Assembly (NCBI GenBank): GCA_024639405.1
Contig: JAHEIL010000047.1
Location: 48,911-112,910 of the forward strand
Source: Crocinitomicaceae bacterium
Lineage (GTDB): Bacteria > Bacteroidota > Bacteroidia > Flavobacteriales_D > Crocinitomicaceae
DNA length: 64,000 nucleotides
Direction of reading: 5' to 3'
Shown here in pieces: positions 44,387 to 54,548 of this stretch. The notes beneath the pieces were generated by a model that saw nothing but the letters and a program-made list of their open reading frames with translations, was not told the origin of the DNA and did not search any database. The position numbers and the translations under genes were made by a program. Each line of letters starts with the position of its first letter. Position 1 is the first letter of the stretch.

Positions 44387-45775
44387 GTGAGAAAAGTATC
44401 GATCATATTGCTTTCTTTTTTAGGTCTATTAATAGCCTTTACTTCTGGCTGTAATAAAACAACGAATTTCTCGACTGGGCTATTAGATTTTTCTTTAGAT
44501 ACGTTAGTTTTTGACACTGTTTTCACAACAATCGGTTCTACTACGCAACAATTTAAAATTTACAACAAACATAGTAAATCAATAAATATCGAAGAAATTG
44601 AATTAATGGGCGGTTCCAATTCACCTTTTAGAATGAATGTTGATGGTGAAATGGGAACAAAATTATCATCAATGGTATTAGAATCAGGTGATAGTTTGTT
44701 TGCATTTGTAGAAGTTACGCTGAATGTCAACAATCAAAATCTACCATTAATTGTGGAAGATTCAATTCGTTTTCGAACCAATGGAAAAGACCAATACATC
44801 CATTTAGCTGTATGGGGACAAGATGCCTACTTTCATTACAAAGACTTAAACGAAGGTGTTTGGCCAAATGACAAGCCCCATGTTATTTTTGGATACGCTG
44901 CTGTTGATTCTTCAAAAACATTGACCATTCAAAAAAACACAAAAATATACCTACACAAAAACGCACTTTTATACAATTACAAAGGCACCTTAAACATTGA
45001 AGGAGAAAAAAATGAAGAAGTACTGATTAAAGGTGATCGATTGGAAAGTTTATATGACGACGTAAGTGGACAATATTATGGTATTTATTTTCACGAAGCG
45101 AAGCCATCAACTATCAATTATGCAATCATTAAAAATGGTACTTCAGGCGTTCATCTTTATTCTAAAGATGCAAGTAGTAGTGGTTACACGTTAACACTTA
45201 CAAATACAAAGATTACCAATCATGCGAGGTATGGCGTATTTATTTATTCAGGAGCAAAAGTAAAAGCTGAAAATTGTTTGATTAAAGGGAATGGAAATCA
45301 CGCGTTATTGGTTAAAGAAGGAGGCGATTTTAACTTTAATTTTTGTACTTTATTGGGTTATGGTTCAAGCAATACGAATCCAACAGTTGGAATCAGTAAT
45401 TATTATAACAATCCAACAACAAATGTTACAACGATTGGTTCCATCAATGAAGGTTCAATCAGAAATAGCATCATTACAGGAAATCAAATGACTGAATTAG
45501 TTTTTGACACCTTATCAAACCCTGGTGTAGTTATGAATTTCTCATTCAGAAATTGTTTGATTAAACTGGAAGAACCCGTTAATAATTCATTTTTCACGAA
45601 CATTTTATGGAATGCGATTCCCTATTTTACGGCCATCAGTGATGATGATTTCACTTTTTTGCCACAATCCGTTTTGAATGGTGGCGCAGATGCTAATTTC
45701 TGGATTCCGCAAGATCTCAACGGGGCAACAAGAGACGCTAGCAATCCTGATATTGGTGCTTACGAAGTGAATTGA
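44387..45775 (+). CDS. right-handed parallel beta-helix lipoprotein
   Basis: Lipobox TSGCN; HYAIIKNGTSGVHLY...; LNGATRDASNPDIGAYE C-terminus; GTG start. Confidence 0.8.
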   Translation: MRKVSIILLSFLGLLIAFTSGCNKTTNFSTGLLDFSLDTLVFDTVFTTIGSTTQQFKIYNKHSKSINIEEIELMGGSNSPFRMNVDGEMGTKLSSMVLESGDSLFAFVEVTLNVNNQNLPLIVEDSIRFRTNGKDQYIHLAVWGQDAYFHYKDLNEGVWPNDKPHVIFGYAAVDSSKTLTIQKNTKIYLHKNALLYNYKGTLNIEGEKNEEVLIKGDRLESLYDDVSGQYYGIYFHEAKPSTINYAIIKNGTSGVHLYSKDASSSGYTLTLTNTKITNHARYGVFIYSGAKVKAENCLIKGNGNHALLVKEGGDFNFNFCTLLGYGSSNTNPTVGISNYYNNPTTNVTTIGSINEGSIRNSIITGNQMTELVFDTLSNPGVVMNFSFRNCLIKLEEPVNNSFFTNILWNAIPYFTAISDDDFTFLPQSVLNGGADANFWIPQDLNGATRDASNPDIGAYEVN

Positions 45776-46725
45776 ATAATTAGGTAATACAAAGGTAAAC
45801 CAAGGGTTAAATTATAAGGAAATGTAACACCTAAAGCCATTGGAATATACAATCCTGGATCTGCTTTTGGAGCTACCAAACGCATTGCCGCTGGAACAGC
45901 AATGTAAGAAGCACTCGCTGCTAAAACAGCAAAAATAAATCGATTCCCTATTTCATCCACAAAATACATACTAATTAAAGCTACCACTGAACCGTTAATT
46001 GCTGGAATGATGATAGCAAACAATATTACGAATAATCCTTGTTTTCGAAAAGAAGAGAAACGCTTTGCTGTTGTAATACCCATTTCCAATAAAAAAATAG
46101 CTAAAAACCCTTTGAAAATATCCGTTGTAAAAGGCTTAAATTCCATAGCTTGTTGAATATTAGAAATGTAACCAATCACTAAACTACCCATGATAATTAG
46201 TACACTTCCATTTGAAATAGAATGTTTTAATGTTTGCCCGATTGTAATTTGCTCTGTTTTTAAATGATTAAATCGTTTCATTAACAAAACACCAACAATA
46301 ATAGCTGGAAACTCCATGAATGCCATCACAGCTACTAAATAGCCATCAAAATGTATTTTTTGTACTTCTAAGAAAGATGTTGCTGAAACAAAGGTAACTG
46401 CACTGACAGAACCATAAGCTGAGGCAATTGCTCCAGCATTCCAATTGTCTAACTTTCTTTTTAAGATAAAAAACGTATACAAAGGAATGAGAGCTGAAAT
46501 TAAAACACCAAACAATAATTCTATATAAATTGCAGAGTTTAAATGACTATGAGCGAGTTCTTGACCTCCTTTAAATCCAATGGAAAAAAGTAAATAAATT
46601 GAAATAAATTTAAAGGAAGAAGGTGGGATTTCCAGATCACTTTTTAAAGTTGCTGCAATAATTCCAAGAATGAAAAAAAGTAAAACTGGATTGGTAATAT
46701 TAACGATTAATAAATCTAAATTCAT
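45760..46725 (-). CDS. sbtA: sodium-dependent bicarbonate transporter, SbtA family
   Basis: NPVLLFFILGIIAATLKSDLEIPPSSFKFISIYLLFSIGFKGGQEL; about 10 TM helices. Confidence 0.88.
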   Translation of the reverse strand: MNLDLLIVNITNPVLLFFILGIIAATLKSDLEIPPSSFKFISIYLLFSIGFKGGQELAHSHLNSAIYIELLFGVLISALIPLYTFFILKRKLDNWNAGAIASAYGSVSAVTFVSATSFLEVQKIHFDGYLVAVMAFMEFPAIIVGVLLMKRFNHLKTEQITIGQTLKHSISNGSVLIIMGSLVIGYISNIQQAMEFKPFTTDIFKGFLAIFLLEMGITTAKRFSSFRKQGLFVILFAIIIPAINGSVVALISMYFVDEIGNRFIFAVLAASASYIAVPAAMRLVAPKADPGLYIPMALGVTFPYNLTLGLPLYYLIIQFTS

Positions 46726-46733
46726 AATATATT

Positions 46734-47690
46734 TTAGTCTTTAAATGATGCTCTTTCTAATCGATCGTTTAATGTTTTACCCAAATCTAAATCTGGGAAT
46801 TTTTCAATTATTATTAAATCATAGTTTCGTGAATCTAAATCGTGTAACAATCCATATAAGTTTGCTGAAGCATGTTGTAAATCTCCTTGAAATGAATAGT
46901 AGTCTATCCCTTCATTTGATTCCAAGTCATCTAATTCATCAAAGTAAACAACTGCTATTTTTTTAGACACATATTTTTGAATATCATTTCGAATGAAACT
47001 TGAACACAATAAAGGTGTTTTAGGTGAATAATGTTTTTTAGCCATTCCAGGAGATTTTATCTTTTCATGACTTTTGTTATTTTCTAGTAAAGTTCCAACA
47101 CATGATTCCAAATCTTCTAGTGTTATAGCACCCAAACGATATACAATTACTTGATCTCCCTCAAAACCAACGATAGTTGATTCAATTCCTTTATTACAAG
47201 GTCCACCATCAAGTATTAATGGAATTTTAGCACCAAAATAAGAATCAACGTGTTTAGGCATTGTTGGACTTATTGATTGATATGGATTTGCACTTGGCGC
47301 AACTAATGGAAAATCAATACTATTTAATAATTCAAGAGCAAGAGGATGGCTGGGCATTCTAATTGCAACAGTATCTTGTCCTGCAGTTACTAAATCACTT
47401 ATTCTAGATGATTTTTTAAGTAACAAAGTCAGAGGTCCTGGCCAAAATTGATTGATCAAAACATTCGCTTTCGGAGGGATTTCACGGACAATTCCTTCCA
47501 ATTGATGGACAGAGCCAATGTGAACTATTAATGGGTTATTGTGAGGTCTGTTTTTTAATTGAAAGATTGTATGTATTGCTTTATCACTAAATGCGCTTCC
47601 AGCTAAACCATAAACCGTTTCAGTTGGAAAACCAATTATGCCATTATTTTTTAAAATAGTTTCTGCTAAGTGAATTGTTGAAGTTATCAT
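46734..47690 (-). CDS. L-threonylcarbamoyladenylate synthase, Sua5 type (YrdC + Sua5 domain)
   Basis: GIIGFPTETVYGLAGSA, KNRPHNNPLIVHI, SPGMAKKHYSPKTPL. Confidence 0.93.
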   Translation of the reverse strand: MITSTIHLAETILKNNGIIGFPTETVYGLAGSAFSDKAIHTIFQLKNRPHNNPLIVHIGSVHQLEGIVREIPPKANVLINQFWPGPLTLLLKKSSRISDLVTAGQDTVAIRMPSHPLALELLNSIDFPLVAPSANPYQSISPTMPKHVDSYFGAKIPLILDGGPCNKGIESTIVGFEGDQVIVYRLGAITLEDLESCVGTLLENNKSHEKIKSPGMAKKHYSPKTPLLCSSFIRNDIQKYVSKKIAVVYFDELDDLESNEGIDYYSFQGDLQHASANLYGLLHDLDSRNYDLIIIEKFPDLDLGKTLNDRLERASFKD

Positions 47691-47696
47691 TCTTAA

Positions 47697-48536
47697 TTAA
47701 GGATTACATGTGTCACAATACATTGGATCTTCAAAAAAATTACCTGATGGATAAATCATTTTTTTCGTGTGTGAACAGCTTGAGCATTGATAGATCTGGT
47801 ATAAAATTGATTTTGTAGGAGCATTGCAATATTCACAAGGCAAGCCTTCAACAACATCAACAATTCCAAATCCTGGTGTTCCACAAACAGTACAAGAAGT
47901 TGTGATTTTATCGACCAATTTTTGAGTTGCTCGTTGTATTATTGTCATTCTAGTAGGATTATACATTGCTCTCATATCTGTTTCTACATAGACAAAACCA
48001 TATGTAACCATACATTTACGATACTGTTTCAATAAATCTTTTTTCGAGCAAATCCCCTTTTGTATAAATTGATAGTTTTTCTCATGATCCTTAATAATTA
48101 ATCCATGAGAAGGAAACTTACATCTAAAGGCAAATTCAAGAAGTTCATTTTCTGAAGTTATGTATGCGCCATTTAAATTTGTTTCAAGTGACAGTACCTT
48201 TTCTACTATCTCTAACTTATTTTTTGGATCTATAAACATCAAAAACTCTTCATTTACAGAAGTAAAAAAAGAGTTTGGATGACTACCAAAAGAACCTTCA
48301 CTGGCTATTGCAAGTTCTGCGTTTGTTGCTTTTAAAGCATGTTTACATTTTGCTCTCAAAGTATCTAAAACTGAATTTAGACGTTCCTTTTCTCCTGAAA
48401 AAGTACCAAAAAGATCCGTATTAATCGTTTTATCAACAATGCAATTAACACCTAATTTAGACGCGAGAATTGGTGCAATCACTTGTTCTTTTTGATGCAT
48501 TGTTGCAATCACTAAAGTTTTATTTTTAAACTTCAT
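47697..48536 (-). CDS. DUF6671-like protein with C-terminal CxxC clusters
   Basis: LVIATMHQKEQVIAPIL ... CTVCGTPGFGIVDVVEGLPCEYC ... CSSCSH ... CDTC. Confidence 0.75.
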   Translation of the reverse strand: MKFKNKTLVIATMHQKEQVIAPILASKLGVNCIVDKTINTDLFGTFSGEKERLNSVLDTLRAKCKHALKATNAELAIASEGSFGSHPNSFFTSVNEEFLMFIDPKNKLEIVEKVLSLETNLNGAYITSENELLEFAFRCKFPSHGLIIKDHEKNYQFIQKGICSKKDLLKQYRKCMVTYGFVYVETDMRAMYNPTRMTIIQRATQKLVDKITTSCTVCGTPGFGIVDVVEGLPCEYCNAPTKSILYQIYQCSSCSHTKKMIYPSGNFFEDPMYCDTCNP

Positions 48537-48804
48537 TAACTAACTCAATTGTAATGGTTGATTGAACTTTAAAGGTTTCATGTTGATTGGTTGCTAAAAA
48601 TTGTTGAAGACTATTTCTAGTTGCTTCCAGTTCTCTAATTCGCACATTTGAACTCGTTTCATCCTGCGAATTTTTTTCCCAATTTTCATGTAATTTAAGT
48701 GAATGGAATTGGATTTTTTTATTGAGCATATCAATAAGGATTTCATGAGTTAATTGTGCTGAAAAAACACCATTAATAAGTTCAAACTGTTCAGTTTTCT
48801 TCAT
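48526..48804 (-). CDS. hypothetical 92-aa protein in sbtA operon
   Basis: Overlaps both neighbouring CDSs in tight operon spacing; no recognised family. Confidence 0.65.
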   Translation of the reverse strand: MKKTEQFELINGVFSAQLTHEILIDMLNKKIQFHSLKLHENWEKNSQDETSSNVRIRELEATRNSLQQFLATNQHETFKVQSTITIELVNEV

Positions 48805-49126
48805 CTTTTAATTCTTTAGGATGTTTTGTTTGTTCACGAATAAATTGATCAAACCAATTATTGGATTGCGTTATGGGTAATGAATATATAGGAAGTTCAG
48901 TTGAAAATTCTGTTTCAACCATTTCAACTAATTTAGAAAACAATAAAGACCGTGTTTGAATGGTTACAATGGAATATTTTTTAATTACTAAATCACCATC
49001 ATTGAATTCATAAGATATATTGTCTAAATCTATGGTTGCTTTAGCAATAATTCTCTCTTCTAAAAGTCGCTTAACTACTAAATTAGGATCAAATTCACTG
49101 TTTAAATAAATTAAAACATTTACCAT
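48791..49126 (-). CDS. CutA/PII-like small protein (divergent)
   Basis: KRLLEERIIAKATIDLDNISYEFNDGDLVIKKYSIVTIQTRSLLFSKLVEMVETEFSTELPIYSLPI...WFDQFIRE follows CutA1 spacing. Confidence 0.6.
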   Translation of the reverse strand: MVNVLIYLNSEFDPNLVVKRLLEERIIAKATIDLDNISYEFNDGDLVIKKYSIVTIQTRSLLFSKLVEMVETEFSTELPIYSLPITQSNNWFDQFIREQTKHPKELKDEEN

Positions 49127-49174
49127 ATTTTATTTATTTGCAAAGTTCGTAATTGATATTTCATAATTTTTATT

Positions 49175-49182
49175 TATATTTG
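49175..49182 (+). promoter_or_regulatory. Bacteroidota -7 element TATATTTG upstream of lysR
   Basis: TAnnTTTG; divergent from near-consensus GAACTTTG (49148-49141, minus). Confidence 0.5.
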
Positions 49183-49205
49183 ATAATACATCATTAAAAT
49201 ATTTT

Positions 49206-50132
49206 ATGAACTATACATTAAGTCAATTAAATATATTTTTAAAAGTTGTTGAAAATGAAAGTATAACAAAAGCTGCTGCCGAATTATTACTTACACAACC
49301 TGCTGTTTCAATTCAACTTAAAAATTTTCAAGCACATTTTGATGTACCATTAACTCAAGTAGTTAACAGAAAATTATACGTAACAGATTTCGGAAGAGAA
49401 ATTGCGATAACAGCAAAACGCATTCTAAATGAAGCAAATGAAATAAAATATAAAACCGCAAAATTCAAAGGTGAAATCACAGGACAACTTACCATTTCTG
49501 TTGTTTCAACGGGTAAATATGTTATTCCTTATTTTTTGCATGACTTTTTAACAGCAAATCCAGCAGTTGAACTAAAATTAGATGTTTCCAACAAAAGTAA
49601 AATAATTGAAGATTTAGAATCAAATACTGTAGATTTTTCCTTGGTTTCGATTTTACCTGAAAAATTAAATCTTGAACGTATTCGTTTGATGAAAAATAAA
49701 TTGTATTTAGTTAGTAATTTGGATTTTGGTAAAAAAAACTTTCACACAATAAAAGATTTACCAAGTGATACACCATTTATTTTTAGAGAATTTGGCTCTG
49801 CAACAAGAATTTCAATGGAAAACTTTTTAAATCGAAACGAAGTTGCAATTAAACGATCAATCGTACTAACATCTAATGAAGCAGTAAAACAAGCTGTAAT
49901 TGCAAAATTAGGCATCTCTATAATGCCTTTGATTGGGATAAGTAATGAATTGACTAACAAGCAACTGAAAATTATACCCGTAAAAAACTTACCCATTTCT
50001 AGTGAATGGAACCTAGTTTGGACCAAAGGCAAAAGAATGTATCCTGCAGCAAAAGCATTTATCGAATTTATTGAAAATGAAAAAGAGCGAATTATAAAAG
50101 AAAACTTCGCATGGTATGAAGCGTATCAATAA
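49206..50132 (+). CDS. LysR family transcriptional regulator
   Basis: LSQLNIFLKVVENESITKAAAELLLTQPAVSIQLKNFQAHF HTH. Confidence 0.95.
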   Translation: MNYTLSQLNIFLKVVENESITKAAAELLLTQPAVSIQLKNFQAHFDVPLTQVVNRKLYVTDFGREIAITAKRILNEANEIKYKTAKFKGEITGQLTISVVSTGKYVIPYFLHDFLTANPAVELKLDVSNKSKIIEDLESNTVDFSLVSILPEKLNLERIRLMKNKLYLVSNLDFGKKNFHTIKDLPSDTPFIFREFGSATRISMENFLNRNEVAIKRSIVLTSNEAVKQAVIAKLGISIMPLIGISNELTNKQLKIIPVKNLPISSEWNLVWTKGKRMYPAAKAFIEFIENEKERIIKENFAWYEAYQ

Positions 50133-51514
50133 AATCCTGCAATAGCAAATGTATACGTTAAGCTAGCTTGTTGAACTTTCACCGTGCATTCGATAAATTT
50201 TAAGCGAGCTTGTATAAAAGCCAATTCACGAGCATTGATTAAAAACAACGAACTTTCACCTGAAACGAACAATTGTTTTTCAGCTTCTAATAATAATTGT
50301 GAATCATTCAATGTACGTTCTATAATTTCTAATTGGTTGATGCTATTTGTTAAATCATTTGCAGCTTTTTTAATCTTATTAGTTAAATAGGCTTTGTTGT
50401 TTTCATAACTCAATTTTTCATCTTGCAATTTAAGTTGTGCTAAACCTAATTCTCCACGCTCTTTTCTTAATAATAAAGGCATTTCAAAGGTCACACCCCA
50501 TTTGTAATTATTTGTTGAAAGTCCATTGTAAGGATTGGAACTTATTGGTTCATTGATTAAATTATAATTTAAATTCAATGCAGGCTTAAGTTGCTCTTTC
50601 TTTAAACGATTATCGATTGCTAAACTTTTGATTTTGAAATCATTTAATTGCAAATAAGGGTGGTTTTGAACTAGTGTATCTATTTGAAAATGTGATAAAA
50701 GACGTGATTTTTCTTGTTGAATTAATTTTAAATCAATTGGTTGAGTCAAACTGTCTAACTCTAATGGAACTTGATTTTCTGTCCAAAGAAAGGTTGCCAA
50801 ATTATATGTTGTTGACGTGTAATCTGTTTCATAATTACGCAACAATGATTCACGATTTTGAACTTGAATTTTAGCTTCTACACTATCAATTGGTGGCCTG
50901 TCACCTAAAATTGCTAACTGCTTCACTCCTTCAAATCGATCTGCAGCAAGTTGATATGATTCCATCATAATTTGCTTTGAAAAATAGGCTAAAACCCAGT
51001 TCCAATAAGCATATCCAGCTTCATAAGCTAATTCATTCAATTGTAGGCGTTGCTCACACAAAGTGCTTTTTTGATAGACATTAGCTTTGAACAATTCTGC
51101 TCTTCGCTGATCAATGAATAAACCTTGACCTAAATTCATTGATAATCCTGCATAAACAAGGCCATTTTGAGGCGTTGAATGTTCTTGACTTAAGTAGATG
51201 CCATCGTTCATTTCTAAACCTGTTTTAACTTCAACACCAAACCAAGTAGGAACTTTCAATCCTGCATTTAAATAACTATAATACTGAGAACCATTGTAGT
51301 ATTTTTGACTTAAATCATTGGATAATTTAGGATCAAAACCGCCTTTAGCCTTTAAAACTGAGAAATTACCATAACGTTGTTGAAGTGCTGCTTTTTTTGC
51401 TAAAGGGTGATTTTTAAGCACTAACGAATAAAACGATTCTACCGAAAAAGTACGTTGTGTAAAAACAACTTTTCCCCAAAATAAACTTAACGAAATCAGA
51501 ACGATGTACTTCAT
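50126..51514 (-). CDS. TolC family outer membrane protein
   Basis: Signal peptide, OEP coiled-coil pattern, operon with HlyD and ABC genes. Confidence 0.88.
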   Translation of the reverse strand: MKYIVLISLSLFWGKVVFTQRTFSVESFYSLVLKNHPLAKKAALQQRYGNFSVLKAKGGFDPKLSNDLSQKYYNGSQYYSYLNAGLKVPTWFGVEVKTGLEMNDGIYLSQEHSTPQNGLVYAGLSMNLGQGLFIDQRRAELFKANVYQKSTLCEQRLQLNELAYEAGYAYWNWVLAYFSKQIMMESYQLAADRFEGVKQLAILGDRPPIDSVEAKIQVQNRESLLRNYETDYTSTTYNLATFLWTENQVPLELDSLTQPIDLKLIQQEKSRLLSHFQIDTLVQNHPYLQLNDFKIKSLAIDNRLKKEQLKPALNLNYNLINEPISSNPYNGLSTNNYKWGVTFEMPLLLRKERGELGLAQLKLQDEKLSYENNKAYLTNKIKKAANDLTNSINQLEIIERTLNDSQLLLEAEKQLFVSGESSLFLINARELAFIQARLKFIECTVKVQQASLTYTFAIAGFY

Positions 51515-52851
51515 TTTTTGGATGTTTTAGTTGACTTTTTTTGTTTATAAAACTGTGGTGGAAAACCATTAATTAATCGCCATAATTCATAACCAATTGG
51601 CACGTTATTCAATAGGATGATAGAATTTGTTCCACCACCTACTCGCAAAGCATTTGGCCAAGGTTTTGATTTTTTATTTGGAGCAATTAACACCCTGAAA
51701 CGACCTTCTTCATCAGCAAAATTATCTACAGCAAAAACTTCTCCATCAAATGTTCCATAACTCGCATTCGGCCAACCTGAAAAAACGATTGCAGGCCAAC
51801 CATCAAATTGTAAGCGTGCATGGTCACCTTTTTTCACTAAAGGCAAATCAACTGGCTTAATGTAAATTTCCACTACTAAATCATACACAGAAGGCATAAT
51901 CGTTGCAATTGCTTCACCTTGCTTTATTGTTTCTCCAATTCCACTTGACAAAACTTTTGTTACAACACCATCTTGAGGTGCTAAAACGTAATACATGCCA
52001 TTTCGTATGGAATAATTGGCAACTTTCCCTTGTAATTTTGTGACATCTACTTCTGCTTCATACATGCTTGAAAGAGCAGTAAATTTATCTGATTCAGCTT
52101 TAGACACCTCATCTCTAAATTTTGAAACAACAGCACTGTACTCTACCCTCGCATCCAAAATATCATTTCTACTTTGTAATAATTTTTGTTGCGTAGCTAC
52201 AACATTGGCTTGTGTTCGTTGCAAGGTTAATTTTCTAGTTTCTAATTCTGTTTGTGATTTAAAACCGTCTTTGTATAATTTTTCGAAGCGGTGAAATTGT
52301 TCCTCTGCAATTTTAGCATTGATTTGAGCAGTGTAATATTCGATACTATCTGTTTTAAATTTTAACTGTGTTTGGTTTAACTTTAATTTTGTCTGTTGCA
52401 ATTTCAAGCGACTTTGATCCAACAATGCATCAACTCTAGTATCTAAACTTTTAATTTTATCGGTGTACGAAAGTACTGACAACTCCTTACTTTTTAATTG
52501 TTGTTCTGTTCGATCAATTAAATTAGGATCAAAATAATCATCTTTAATTTCTGAAATAAATAAGATGGTATCGCCCTTTTTAACAATATCGCCATCTTTT
52601 ACAAACCATTTTTCAACTTTTCCTGAAATAACCGTATTAATTGTTTGCGGTTTTTGCTCTGGTCTTAATGTTGATATTTTTCCAGTTGAAGGGATGTTTT
52701 GAGTCCATGGCAACAACATAATAACTACCAATAAAAGCAATAAAACATAAATAGTTCGCTTTAATTTTTTACTCGTTTTTTGAATTTCAACATGATGCAA
52801 AGATGATTGATCTTCGAGTTGAATTTTATTTTCTGGAGATAAATTTAACAT
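51511..52851 (-). CDS. HlyD family secretion/adaptor protein
   Basis: Single TM, GKVEKWFVKDGDIVKKGDTILFISE and YVLAPQDGVVTKVLSSGIGETIKQGE lipoyl halves, long coiled coil. Confidence 0.92.
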   Translation of the reverse strand: MLNLSPENKIQLEDQSSLHHVEIQKTSKKLKRTIYVLLLLLVVIMLLPWTQNIPSTGKISTLRPEQKPQTINTVISGKVEKWFVKDGDIVKKGDTILFISEIKDDYFDPNLIDRTEQQLKSKELSVLSYTDKIKSLDTRVDALLDQSRLKLQQTKLKLNQTQLKFKTDSIEYYTAQINAKIAEEQFHRFEKLYKDGFKSQTELETRKLTLQRTQANVVATQQKLLQSRNDILDARVEYSAVVSKFRDEVSKAESDKFTALSSMYEAEVDVTKLQGKVANYSIRNGMYYVLAPQDGVVTKVLSSGIGETIKQGEAIATIMPSVYDLVVEIYIKPVDLPLVKKGDHARLQFDGWPAIVFSGWPNASYGTFDGEVFAVDNFADEEGRFRVLIAPNKKSKPWPNALRVGGGTNSIILLNNVPIGYELWRLINGFPPQFYKQKKSTKTSKK

Positions 52852-52856
52852 ACCAA

Positions 52857-54548
52857 TTAAAGTTTTGAAAATGATTCGTAATTGCCATCAAAAACAAGTG
52901 TACCTTGTTCAAATTTCACTATTCGATCAGCCATTTTTTGAATTGATTGATCATTACTTGCTATCAATAGAGTCGTGTTGCTCAGTTGTTCAAGGTGAGC
53001 TATTAAGGGTTGTTTTTGATTCTGTGACATTCCAACAGTTGGATCATCTAACAAAAGAAGTCGTGGATTTTTGAGTATTGCTCTAGCATACAATAGCTTT
53101 GTTATGGAATCTTTCGGAATAAAATGGATTTCATTGCTTAATTGTGTCGCATATTTTTCATTGCATTGATTGACAAAATTAGTCATACCCAATAGTTCCA
53201 TTATAGTAGCGATTTCTGACAATTCCACAGAATGATTTCCAAAACGAATATTATCTTCCAATGAAACATCAATGAGTTGATCACTTGCTAAAACAGTTCC
53301 AATTTGACTTCTTAACTCGTGAGTATTTAAATTCTCAAGCGGAAGATTATCTAAAGTAATCATACCAGACTGTTTTTCGCAAATTCCAGTCAATAAATAA
53401 AACAATGAATTTACTGTTAAGCTTGTGTCAGCGACAATACAAACTCGTTCATTTGGTTGAACTGAGAACGAAACTGAATTTAAACTTTTTTCCGTGAATA
53501 TGGAAGATTGAAAATTAAGTCCTTGAACATCAATTGCCATTCCTTTGTTAGTTGTCTTATCCAATACTGCTCCGTGATATCTTTCAAGTGGAATATCGGT
53601 TGCTTGACCAATTTTTTCTGTTGATGTAAACACATCGTATATAATATCCAAACTAATGATCAGTTTTTCAACAGAAGACAATACCAATAAAATAATGATT
53701 TCAGAAGCAACAAATTGTCCAATGTTTAATTGTTGATTGATCACCAACAAACCACCTACAATTAATAATGCTAATGCGATCATGATTTTGAATACAATTA
53801 AAAAAGTATATTGCTTTACTAAAACTTTAAAATGTTTGTCGCGTGCACCCAGATAATTGTGTAAAAATCCATTTGCTTTATCCACATTGTAAGCGTTTTG
53901 AGCCGACATTTTAAAACTAATTTTAGCATTCGCTATGTTTGACAACCAGCTTGCAATCTTATACTTATGAGATGATTCTTTCAAACTTGTTTCATAGCCT
54001 TCTTTAGAAGTCAATCGAACAATCAAATACAACATAAGTAATAAAAGAATTCCCAAAAAGATAAAGAAACTATGGTAAAACGATAACAACACAAGTCCAA
54101 ATACGATTTGAAGTGAAGCAGCTGTAAAATCAATTAATAATTTTGAAATTCCTTTTTGCAAAGTAACAGTATCAAAAAAGCGATTCGTTAAATCACCCGC
54201 ATTCAATTTCAACGTTTCCACCAATTTCATTTGTGGAATTCTTGCCGCAAATTCAAACGTTGATCGTGTAAAAATTCGTTGTTGTAAATTTTCAGTAATT
54301 CTAAGCTGATAAATCGTTAAAATTCCTGAAAATCCAATTGCTAATGAAACCAATAAAACTAATACTAGCCAGGAAGCACTTATTTGACCTAATTGAATAA
54401 AATTAATAATCATTTGTATACCCAAAGGCAATCCCAAAGACAAAATTCCGCTCAAAATCGCAAACAAATAAATGTTCTTTATTTCAGAAGAATCAGGTTT
54501 TAACAAATTAAAAAACCGTTTAAAAATGGATACATTAGACGTTGTCAT
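52857..54548 (-). CDS. type I ABC-exporter-like protein with degenerate nucleotide-binding domain
   Basis: ABC TM domain plus NBD-like domain, but Walker A, Q-loop, LSGGQ and H-loop positions are replaced. Confidence 0.85.
   Translation of the reverse strand: MTTSNVSIFKRFFNLLKPDSSEIKNIYLFAILSGILSLGLPLGIQMIINFIQLGQISASWLVLVLLVSLAIGFSGILTIYQLRITENLQQRIFTRSTFEFAARIPQMKLVETLKLNAGDLTNRFFDTVTLQKGISKLLIDFTAASLQIVFGLVLLSFYHSFFIFLGILLLLMLYLIVRLTSKEGYETSLKESSHKYKIASWLSNIANAKISFKMSAQNAYNVDKANGFLHNYLGARDKHFKVLVKQYTFLIVFKIMIALALLIVGGLLVINQQLNIGQFVASEIIILLVLSSVEKLIISLDIIYDVFTSTEKIGQATDIPLERYHGAVLDKTTNKGMAIDVQGLNFQSSIFTEKSLNSVSFSVQPNERVCIVADTSLTVNSLFYLLTGICEKQSGMITLDNLPLENLNTHELRSQIGTVLASDQLIDVSLEDNIRFGNHSVELSEIATIMELLGMTNFVNQCNEKYATQLSNEIHFIPKDSITKLLYARAILKNPRLLLLDDPTVGMSQNQKQPLIAHLEQLSNTTLLIASNDQSIQKMADRIVKFEQGTLVFDGNYESFSKL

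Follow-up and report, generated by a model that had tools for sequence, protein, structure and literature searches.

What use would a heterotrophic member of the Bacteroidota have for an SbtA-type transporter, and why should its gene lie in one run with a gene for transfer RNA (tRNA) modification? The question is raised by a cluster in a 64,000-nucleotide (nt) stretch of a Crocinitomicaceae genome (contig JAHEIL010000047.1, positions 48,911 to 112,910; hereafter, the window), in which five minus-strand genes, in the order CutA-like, 92-amino-acid (aa) orphan, DUF6671, Sua5 and SbtA, stand divergent from a LysR-type regulator gene. The six open reading frames of a preliminary description of this DNA were all located exactly, and the features are as follows, in window coordinates.

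49206..50132, plus strand: LysR-type regulator (Pfam PF00126 and PF03466)
49138..49199, minus strand: predicted operator and −7-like TTTGC box of the operon promoter (motif scoring, leave-one-out)
48791..49126, minus strand: divergent CutA1-like protein, 111 aa (just under the cut-off of Pfam CutA1)
48526..48804, minus strand: 92-aa orphan (no Pfam family)
47697..48536, minus strand: DUF6671 protein, 279 aa (PF20376, 288 bits; Pfam)
46734..47690, minus strand: Sua5-type threonylcarbamoyl-AMP (TC-AMP) synthase (PF01300 and PF03481; Sua5_C, 83 bits)
45760..46725, minus strand: SbtA-family transporter, 321 aa (PF05982, 375 bits with a cut-off of 27, residues 13–318)

The CutA-like and orphan genes overlap by 14 nt and the orphan and DUF6671 genes by 11 nt, and gaps of 6 nt (DUF6671–Sua5) and 8 nt (Sua5–SbtA) separate the rest, an arrangement that fits a single transcript; 79 nt lie between the divergent starts of the LysR and CutA-like genes. 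The literature that we found does not describe this operon. We propose that these genes form the centre of a regulon, controlled by a LysR protein resembling NdhR and CmpR, with which heterotrophic Bacteroidota respond to inorganic-carbon limitation, and we give this reading a probability of roughly 0.6. The regulator would bind at a conserved operator within the 79 bp between the divergent genes and read a central-carbon signal, most likely 2-oxoglutarate (2-OG), together with a second small anion other than 2-phosphoglycolate (2-PG). When inorganic carbon is short, it would permit expression of SbtA and thereby bicarbonate import, and the same low-CO2 condition would induce enzymes that use or depend on CO2 or HCO3−. 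In the window this would be Sua5, as a second enzyme sustaining the formation of N6-threonylcarbamoyladenosine (t6A) in tRNA when bicarbonate is scarce; in other genomes isocitrate dehydrogenase (ICD), dihydroorotase, dethiobiotin synthase and carbonic anhydrase would join. The 92-aa protein would be a small accessory of the regulon that is not confined to a single transporter.

The first evidence is the recurrence of the neighbourhood. PF05982 is found above cut-off in 44 of 199 genomes of the order and in 81 of 346 genomes sampled across the phylum, and surroundings were examined for the 44 order members, for 80 named relatives (Flavobacterium, Aquimarina, Robiginitalea, Fluviicola, Chitinophagaceae, Cytophagales and others) and for 25 loci drawn by the orphan alone. 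Counts at SbtA loci refer to genes at most 6.5 kb away at 126 non-redundant loci, and depend on gene calling. This neighbourhood comparison, proposed in the preliminary description, shows gene order conserved well beyond close relatives: a divergent LysR gene, then ICD, a small membrane protein, the orphan, DUF6671, Sua5, dihydroorotase and SbtA, of which all but LysR, the orphan and SbtA are optional. LysR genes occur at 77 of the 126 loci, the orphan at 61, DUF6671 at 38, ICD at 29, Sua5 at 26, dihydroorotase at 19, a beta-carbonic anhydrase at 16 and a CutA-like gene at 7. The association of LysR, the orphan, DUF6671 and Sua5 with SbtA loci is not due to chance, and the suggestion that DUF6671 and the 92-aa protein are components of the system holds. 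NCBIfam models assign the ICD to the NADP-dependent PRK09222 type and the dihydroorotase to PRK09236, and identify further operon members as a beta-carbonic anhydrase family protein, BioD and BioA. CO2 is a substrate of dethiobiotin synthase. bioD or bioA genes are seen inside SbtA/Sua5 operons in L113 (7307-7918) and L143 (3282-4511).

The regulator points to the nature of the signal. Its best matches in the PDB are NdhR (5y2v, E = 1.6e-46) and CmpR (5z49, E = 6.8e-24), placing it in the NdhR/CcmR–CmpR–CbbR clade; the preliminary description had pointed to CmpR and CbbR as LysR regulators of carbon uptake. The best NCBIfam model is CbbR, with a score below cut-off. NdhR contacts 2-OG through K104, Y105, S224 and N225 (as listed in a review, PMC13249358; its ‘Lys10’ was taken to mean Lys104, given the TTAKY sequence), and 2-PG through T101, T102, H130, N164, R195, T201 and R267 (PMC13249358). 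The window LysR retains all four 2-OG contacts (K104, Y105, S223 and N224), and among 92 aligned operon LysRs K104 is kept in 88, Y105 in 92, S224 in 86 (Thr in six) and N225 in 91. In the second pocket, four of the seven 2-PG contacts are identical in the window protein and S101, K130 and S266 deviate; across the 92 proteins, T102, N164, R195 and T201 are invariant, position 101 is always Ser, 130 always Lys or Arg, and 267 always Ser or Thr. Retention of the first site with alteration of the second suggests that the regulator still senses 2-OG, but accommodates another anion in the second cleft.

These same residues would suit a different account, in which the regulon answers carbon/nitrogen balance through 2-OG, or alkaline pH or sodium, and not inorganic carbon itself; transport of bicarbonate, or of a similar small anion, by SbtA would be one response among several. 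The 2-OG contacts are conserved in the 92 LysRs while each of these proteins has three changed positions in the pocket for 2-PG or ribulose 1,5-bisphosphate, and ICD, the enzyme that produces 2-OG, is often among the genes and has the operator even where LysR and SbtA lie elsewhere (L167 and L175). What a response purely to such balance or to pH would not predict is the exchange of transporters seen at the 25 loci retrieved with the orphan alone: SbtA is present at 13, DabB–DabA at four and SulP at one (L174), and seven have only ICD, DUF6671 or Sua5. PF10070 confirms DabB–DabA in L169 and L170; in L173 and L189 the pair was recognized from protein size and similarity at the N terminus. That one slot can be filled by three unrelated families of inorganic-carbon transporter is, to our mind, the strongest indication in the sequences that inorganic carbon is what is carried. 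A recurring periplasmic carbonic anhydrase and dethiobiotin synthase would not be predicted by the balance or pH account either, and we consider it about one chance in five, below the inorganic-carbon reading.

The promoter region shows how far the control extends. Across 80 loci, with eight types of first gene, the sequence between the divergent genes is strongly conserved and ends in the Bacteroidota −7-like TTTGC. The divergent promoter holds an operator of the TTTATG..CATnACAAATATAAATAAAAATnTATGAA type; the family consensus, TTTATG...ACAAATATAAATAAAAATnTATGAA, does not match the ATAG-N8-CTAT of NdhR. The window site, left out of training, scored 27.3 bits, and the runner-up within the 64 kb scored −4.2. 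With the same matrix, 21 extra sites were found outside LysR promoters as annotated, most of them preceding SbtA, ICD, orphan, DUF6671 or small-membrane-protein genes; a few correspond to a LysR promoter read on the opposite strand or lie beside a LysR gene with a miscalled start. The operator precedes operons that have no adjacent LysR gene, both of SbtA (L050, L071 and L074, and a small membrane protein–orphan–SbtA operon in L086) and of ICD (L157, L167, L175 and L186), and in L143 a separate DUF6671–BioA–Sua5–dihydroorotase operon has its own copy. Operators away from any LysR gene indicate one trans-acting regulon across unlinked operons.

The L143 operator also bears on the proposal that promoter sharing is all there is, with LysR and SbtA a functional pair and Sua5, DUF6671, dihydroorotase and ICD housekeeping genes that landed there by chance. 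Operon composition does vary strongly, with at least 10 state changes for Sua5 and 24 for DUF6671 on the SbtA tree, and in the class Sua5 lies outside the operon in most genomes that have it (6 of 27 inside, among those listed). Yet the same few genes return independently, seven of the nine full-length DUF6671 copies in the phylum sample have this operon setting, and the separate L143 operon has an operator of its own; we regard the proposal as unlikely.

How Sua5 fits into an inorganic-carbon regulon depends on what else the genome encodes. The window protein has an intact KNR/SAN tetrad (KxR/SxN), a Pro signature and a SUA5 domain. Genomes with an operon Sua5 contain three clean classes of YrdC-domain proteins: Sua5, the operon gene (about 320 aa, KxR, SAN, Pro signature); TsaC (about 190 aa, KxR, SAN, Thr signature); and YciO-like proteins (about 206 aa, tetrad lost). 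Elsewhere in its genome the window organism has an intact TsaC (L003; KxR/SxN, Thr signature) and a degraded YciO-like protein (L002; KNK/SLH). An intact TsaC was likewise confirmed for 20 of the 26 further genomes whose operon includes Sua5; of the remaining six, four carry a third gene that may encode one, and none was seen in the metagenome-assembled genomes of L117 and L143. A role for Sua5 as sole t6A enzyme is ruled out by L003 in the same genome, so that its earlier description as ‘the’ t6A step falls, and a coupling of bicarbonate to t6A survives only in the form of an inducible second enzyme. For the human mitochondrial enzymes the bicarbonate Km is 13 mM for TC-AMP (YRDC) and 31 mM for t6A, and mitochondrial t6A drops without bicarbonate (PMC5951830); on this ground we propose that the operon Sua5 would be a spare for bicarbonate shortage. 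In a paper on the TsaC/Sua5 family, the presence of both in one genome was called rare (PMC10321239), unlike their co-occurrence here, which is regular and tied to an inorganic-carbon operon.

The preliminary description had further proposed that SbtA is gated by a trimer of the CutA-like protein, as an analogue of SbtB, and feeds the sole t6A synthase. CutA and PII proteins have a ferredoxin-like trimer fold in common, and the CutA-like gene opens the window operon and is met again in L061, L066, L084 and L128, among others. The 111-aa protein, the sole CutA1-like gene product found in the window genome, scores 20.7 bits against 22.4 for the Pfam CutA1 profile and 18.3 against 120 for that of NCBIfam, and matches Thermus CutA1 (1nza) with E = 7e-4. 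Such genes stand at only seven of the 126 SbtA loci, Pfam gave no P-II match among the window operon proteins, and in L034, where neither LysR nor orphan is nearby, the gene after sbtA encodes a genuine PII protein (L166 has a borderline P-II match). As a general model CutA-like SbtB is rejected, and with an intact TsaC in the genome the combined scheme is very improbable. Of the preliminary description's bicarbonate operon under LysR control, the outline stands, on the conserved neighbourhoods and the NdhR/CmpR clade of the regulator; the sole t6A enzyme and the SbtB analogue do not.

Several observations weigh against the inorganic-carbon reading. Membership of the transporter in the SbtA family is firm (phmmer E = 2e-25 to Slr1512; 321 and 374 aa), and we presume it to be a Na+/HCO3− symporter. 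In Slr1512, S114, Y140, S324 and S327 are the residues around docked bicarbonate, and their mutation lowers bicarbonate transport; S108 and S273 of the window protein match, but M134 replaces Y140 and A276 replaces S327, so that two of the four are changed. The 24 Bacteroidota SbtAs compared show no variation at any of these four positions (S108, M134, S273 and A276). LysR is missing within 6.5 kb at 49 of the 126 SbtA loci and Sua5 is present at just about one-fifth. Sua5_C occurs in 254 of the 346 phylum genomes, many Bacteroidota having Sua5 outside such an operon, and the class-level share of 6 in 27 points the same way. When genes were tested for being gained or lost together along the SbtA tree, sign tests fell short of significance (median p values of 0.07 to 1), with too few supported pairs. 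In the window genome, a simpler form of the operator pattern yielded no further credible site (12 matches, as against 16 in a reversed control).

The two proteins new to such operons can be described from their predicted structures. The AlphaFold model of DUF6671 (predicted template modelling score, 0.80) matches YjjX (1u5w and 1u14) and RdgB (1k7k) in Foldseek, with E = 3.7e-4, probability 1.00 and TM-scores by target of 0.35–0.50, and its C-terminal region has eight cysteines in a predicted zinc ribbon. The fold is thus predicted to be a domain of the ITPase/YjjX/HAM1 superfamily with a zinc ribbon, and the protein is probably a nucleotide-acting enzyme. A literature search on DUF6671 returned no match.

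The 92-aa orphan belongs, by its gene neighbourhoods, to a new family of small proteins encoded in the inorganic-carbon operons of Bacteroidota. A role as SbtA-specific regulator is ruled out, as it also occurs with DabAB, with SulP or with ICD alone. Its predicted structure is a strand, two long helices and a strand (beta-alpha-alpha-beta; a helical hairpin) with a confidence score (pLDDT) of 90; no PDB fold matched better than E = 0.5, and a profile search gave nothing significant. A protein-binding adaptor would be our guess. Tandem orphan paralogues occur in L041, L097, L124 of Flavobacterium segetis and L157 of F. fontis, one of about 80 aa directly after ICD and one of 90–95 aa before DUF6671 or Sua5. 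A second family of 85–104 aa, with no match to Pfam or the orphan profile, fills the orphan's place between LysR and SbtA in other loci (L058:7688-7960, L067:7689-7958, L070:7642-7953 and L073:8939-9193). Short proteins of about 55–97 aa, resembling two-helix membrane proteins, often precede the orphan gene (L106:4319-4531, L149:5721-5915, L118:4474-4713, L082:4501-4680 and others).

The closest known system is the cyanobacterial control of sbtAB, ndh-1(3) and cmp by NdhR (CcmR) and CmpR at low inorganic carbon (PMC13249358, PMC3401165), with which the Bacteroidota cluster shares the LysR clade, the 2-OG contacts and linkage of the regulator gene to SbtA. It differs in belonging to heterotrophs, in having no SbtB, in its operator, in the 2-PG pocket of its LysRs (S101, K/R130, S/T267) and in including ICD, Sua5, DUF6671, dihydroorotase and a new small protein. 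Inorganic-carbon uptake needed by a non-autotroph is known from the DAB system of Staphylococcus aureus, MpsAB (PMC6689103), and in some Bacteroidota DabAB stands in for SbtA behind the LysR–orphan pair; unlike that system the window has SbtA, and the available portion of the MpsAB account mentions no such regulator, operator or accessory genes. An sbtA of proteorhodopsin-bearing marine Flavobacteriia, thus a transporter of the same name in the same phylum, has been tied to anaplerotic carbon uptake (PMC5932025), the available part of that report noting gene presence only. The window genome gave no rhodopsin match, with a control search likewise silent, and phosphoenolpyruvate carboxylase was not found in it.

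A fuller version of the inorganic-carbon reading would have heterotrophs possess a regulon of their own, in which an NdhR-like LysR with an altered pocket guards bicarbonate-dependent steps, t6A formation included through an inducible second TC-AMP synthase, and to which two novel proteins belong, an ITPase-like zinc protein and a helical-hairpin adaptor, that we know from no other carbon-acquisition system. We hold this version tentatively, at somewhat less than even odds. CO2-linked gene control and bicarbonate pumping have been studied mostly in autotrophs; if the reading is right, a regulon of similar kind serves other needs in a common group of heterotrophs (tRNA modification, pyrimidine and biotin synthesis, and the tricarboxylic acid cycle), and non-photosynthetic bacteria of water and soil carry a switch like the cyanobacterial one for low CO2. 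It would also account for the retention of TsaC alongside Sua5 in these genomes, place DUF6671 and the orphan family in a functional context, and make bicarbonate limitation of bacterial t6A directly testable, with the operator as a handle for finding further regulon members.

Other genes recur around these loci. A family of 163–186 aa with the motif ‘LFxVCPFxxxE’ lies just upstream of SbtA or after the orphan (L059:7460-7954, L150:7507-8001, L153:7523-8011, L181:8356-8913, L184:8303-8848 and L186:8272-8826); suggestive matches (hhalign E = 0.22, Pro_CA E = 0.099) make it a possible zinc-less or degenerate relative of beta-carbonic anhydrases. A TerC-family membrane protein is encoded between Sua5 and SbtA in L117 (7287-7985) and L155 (7298-7996). 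Broken SbtA copies occur in L066 (4620-5606, split by a stop) and L077 (8028-8297, a fragment). Adjoining the LysR gene of the window, at 50126-54548, outer-membrane-efflux, membrane-fusion-like and ABC-like proteins are encoded in one run that resembles a type I exporter, and the outer-membrane gene next to LysR is retained in several relatives.

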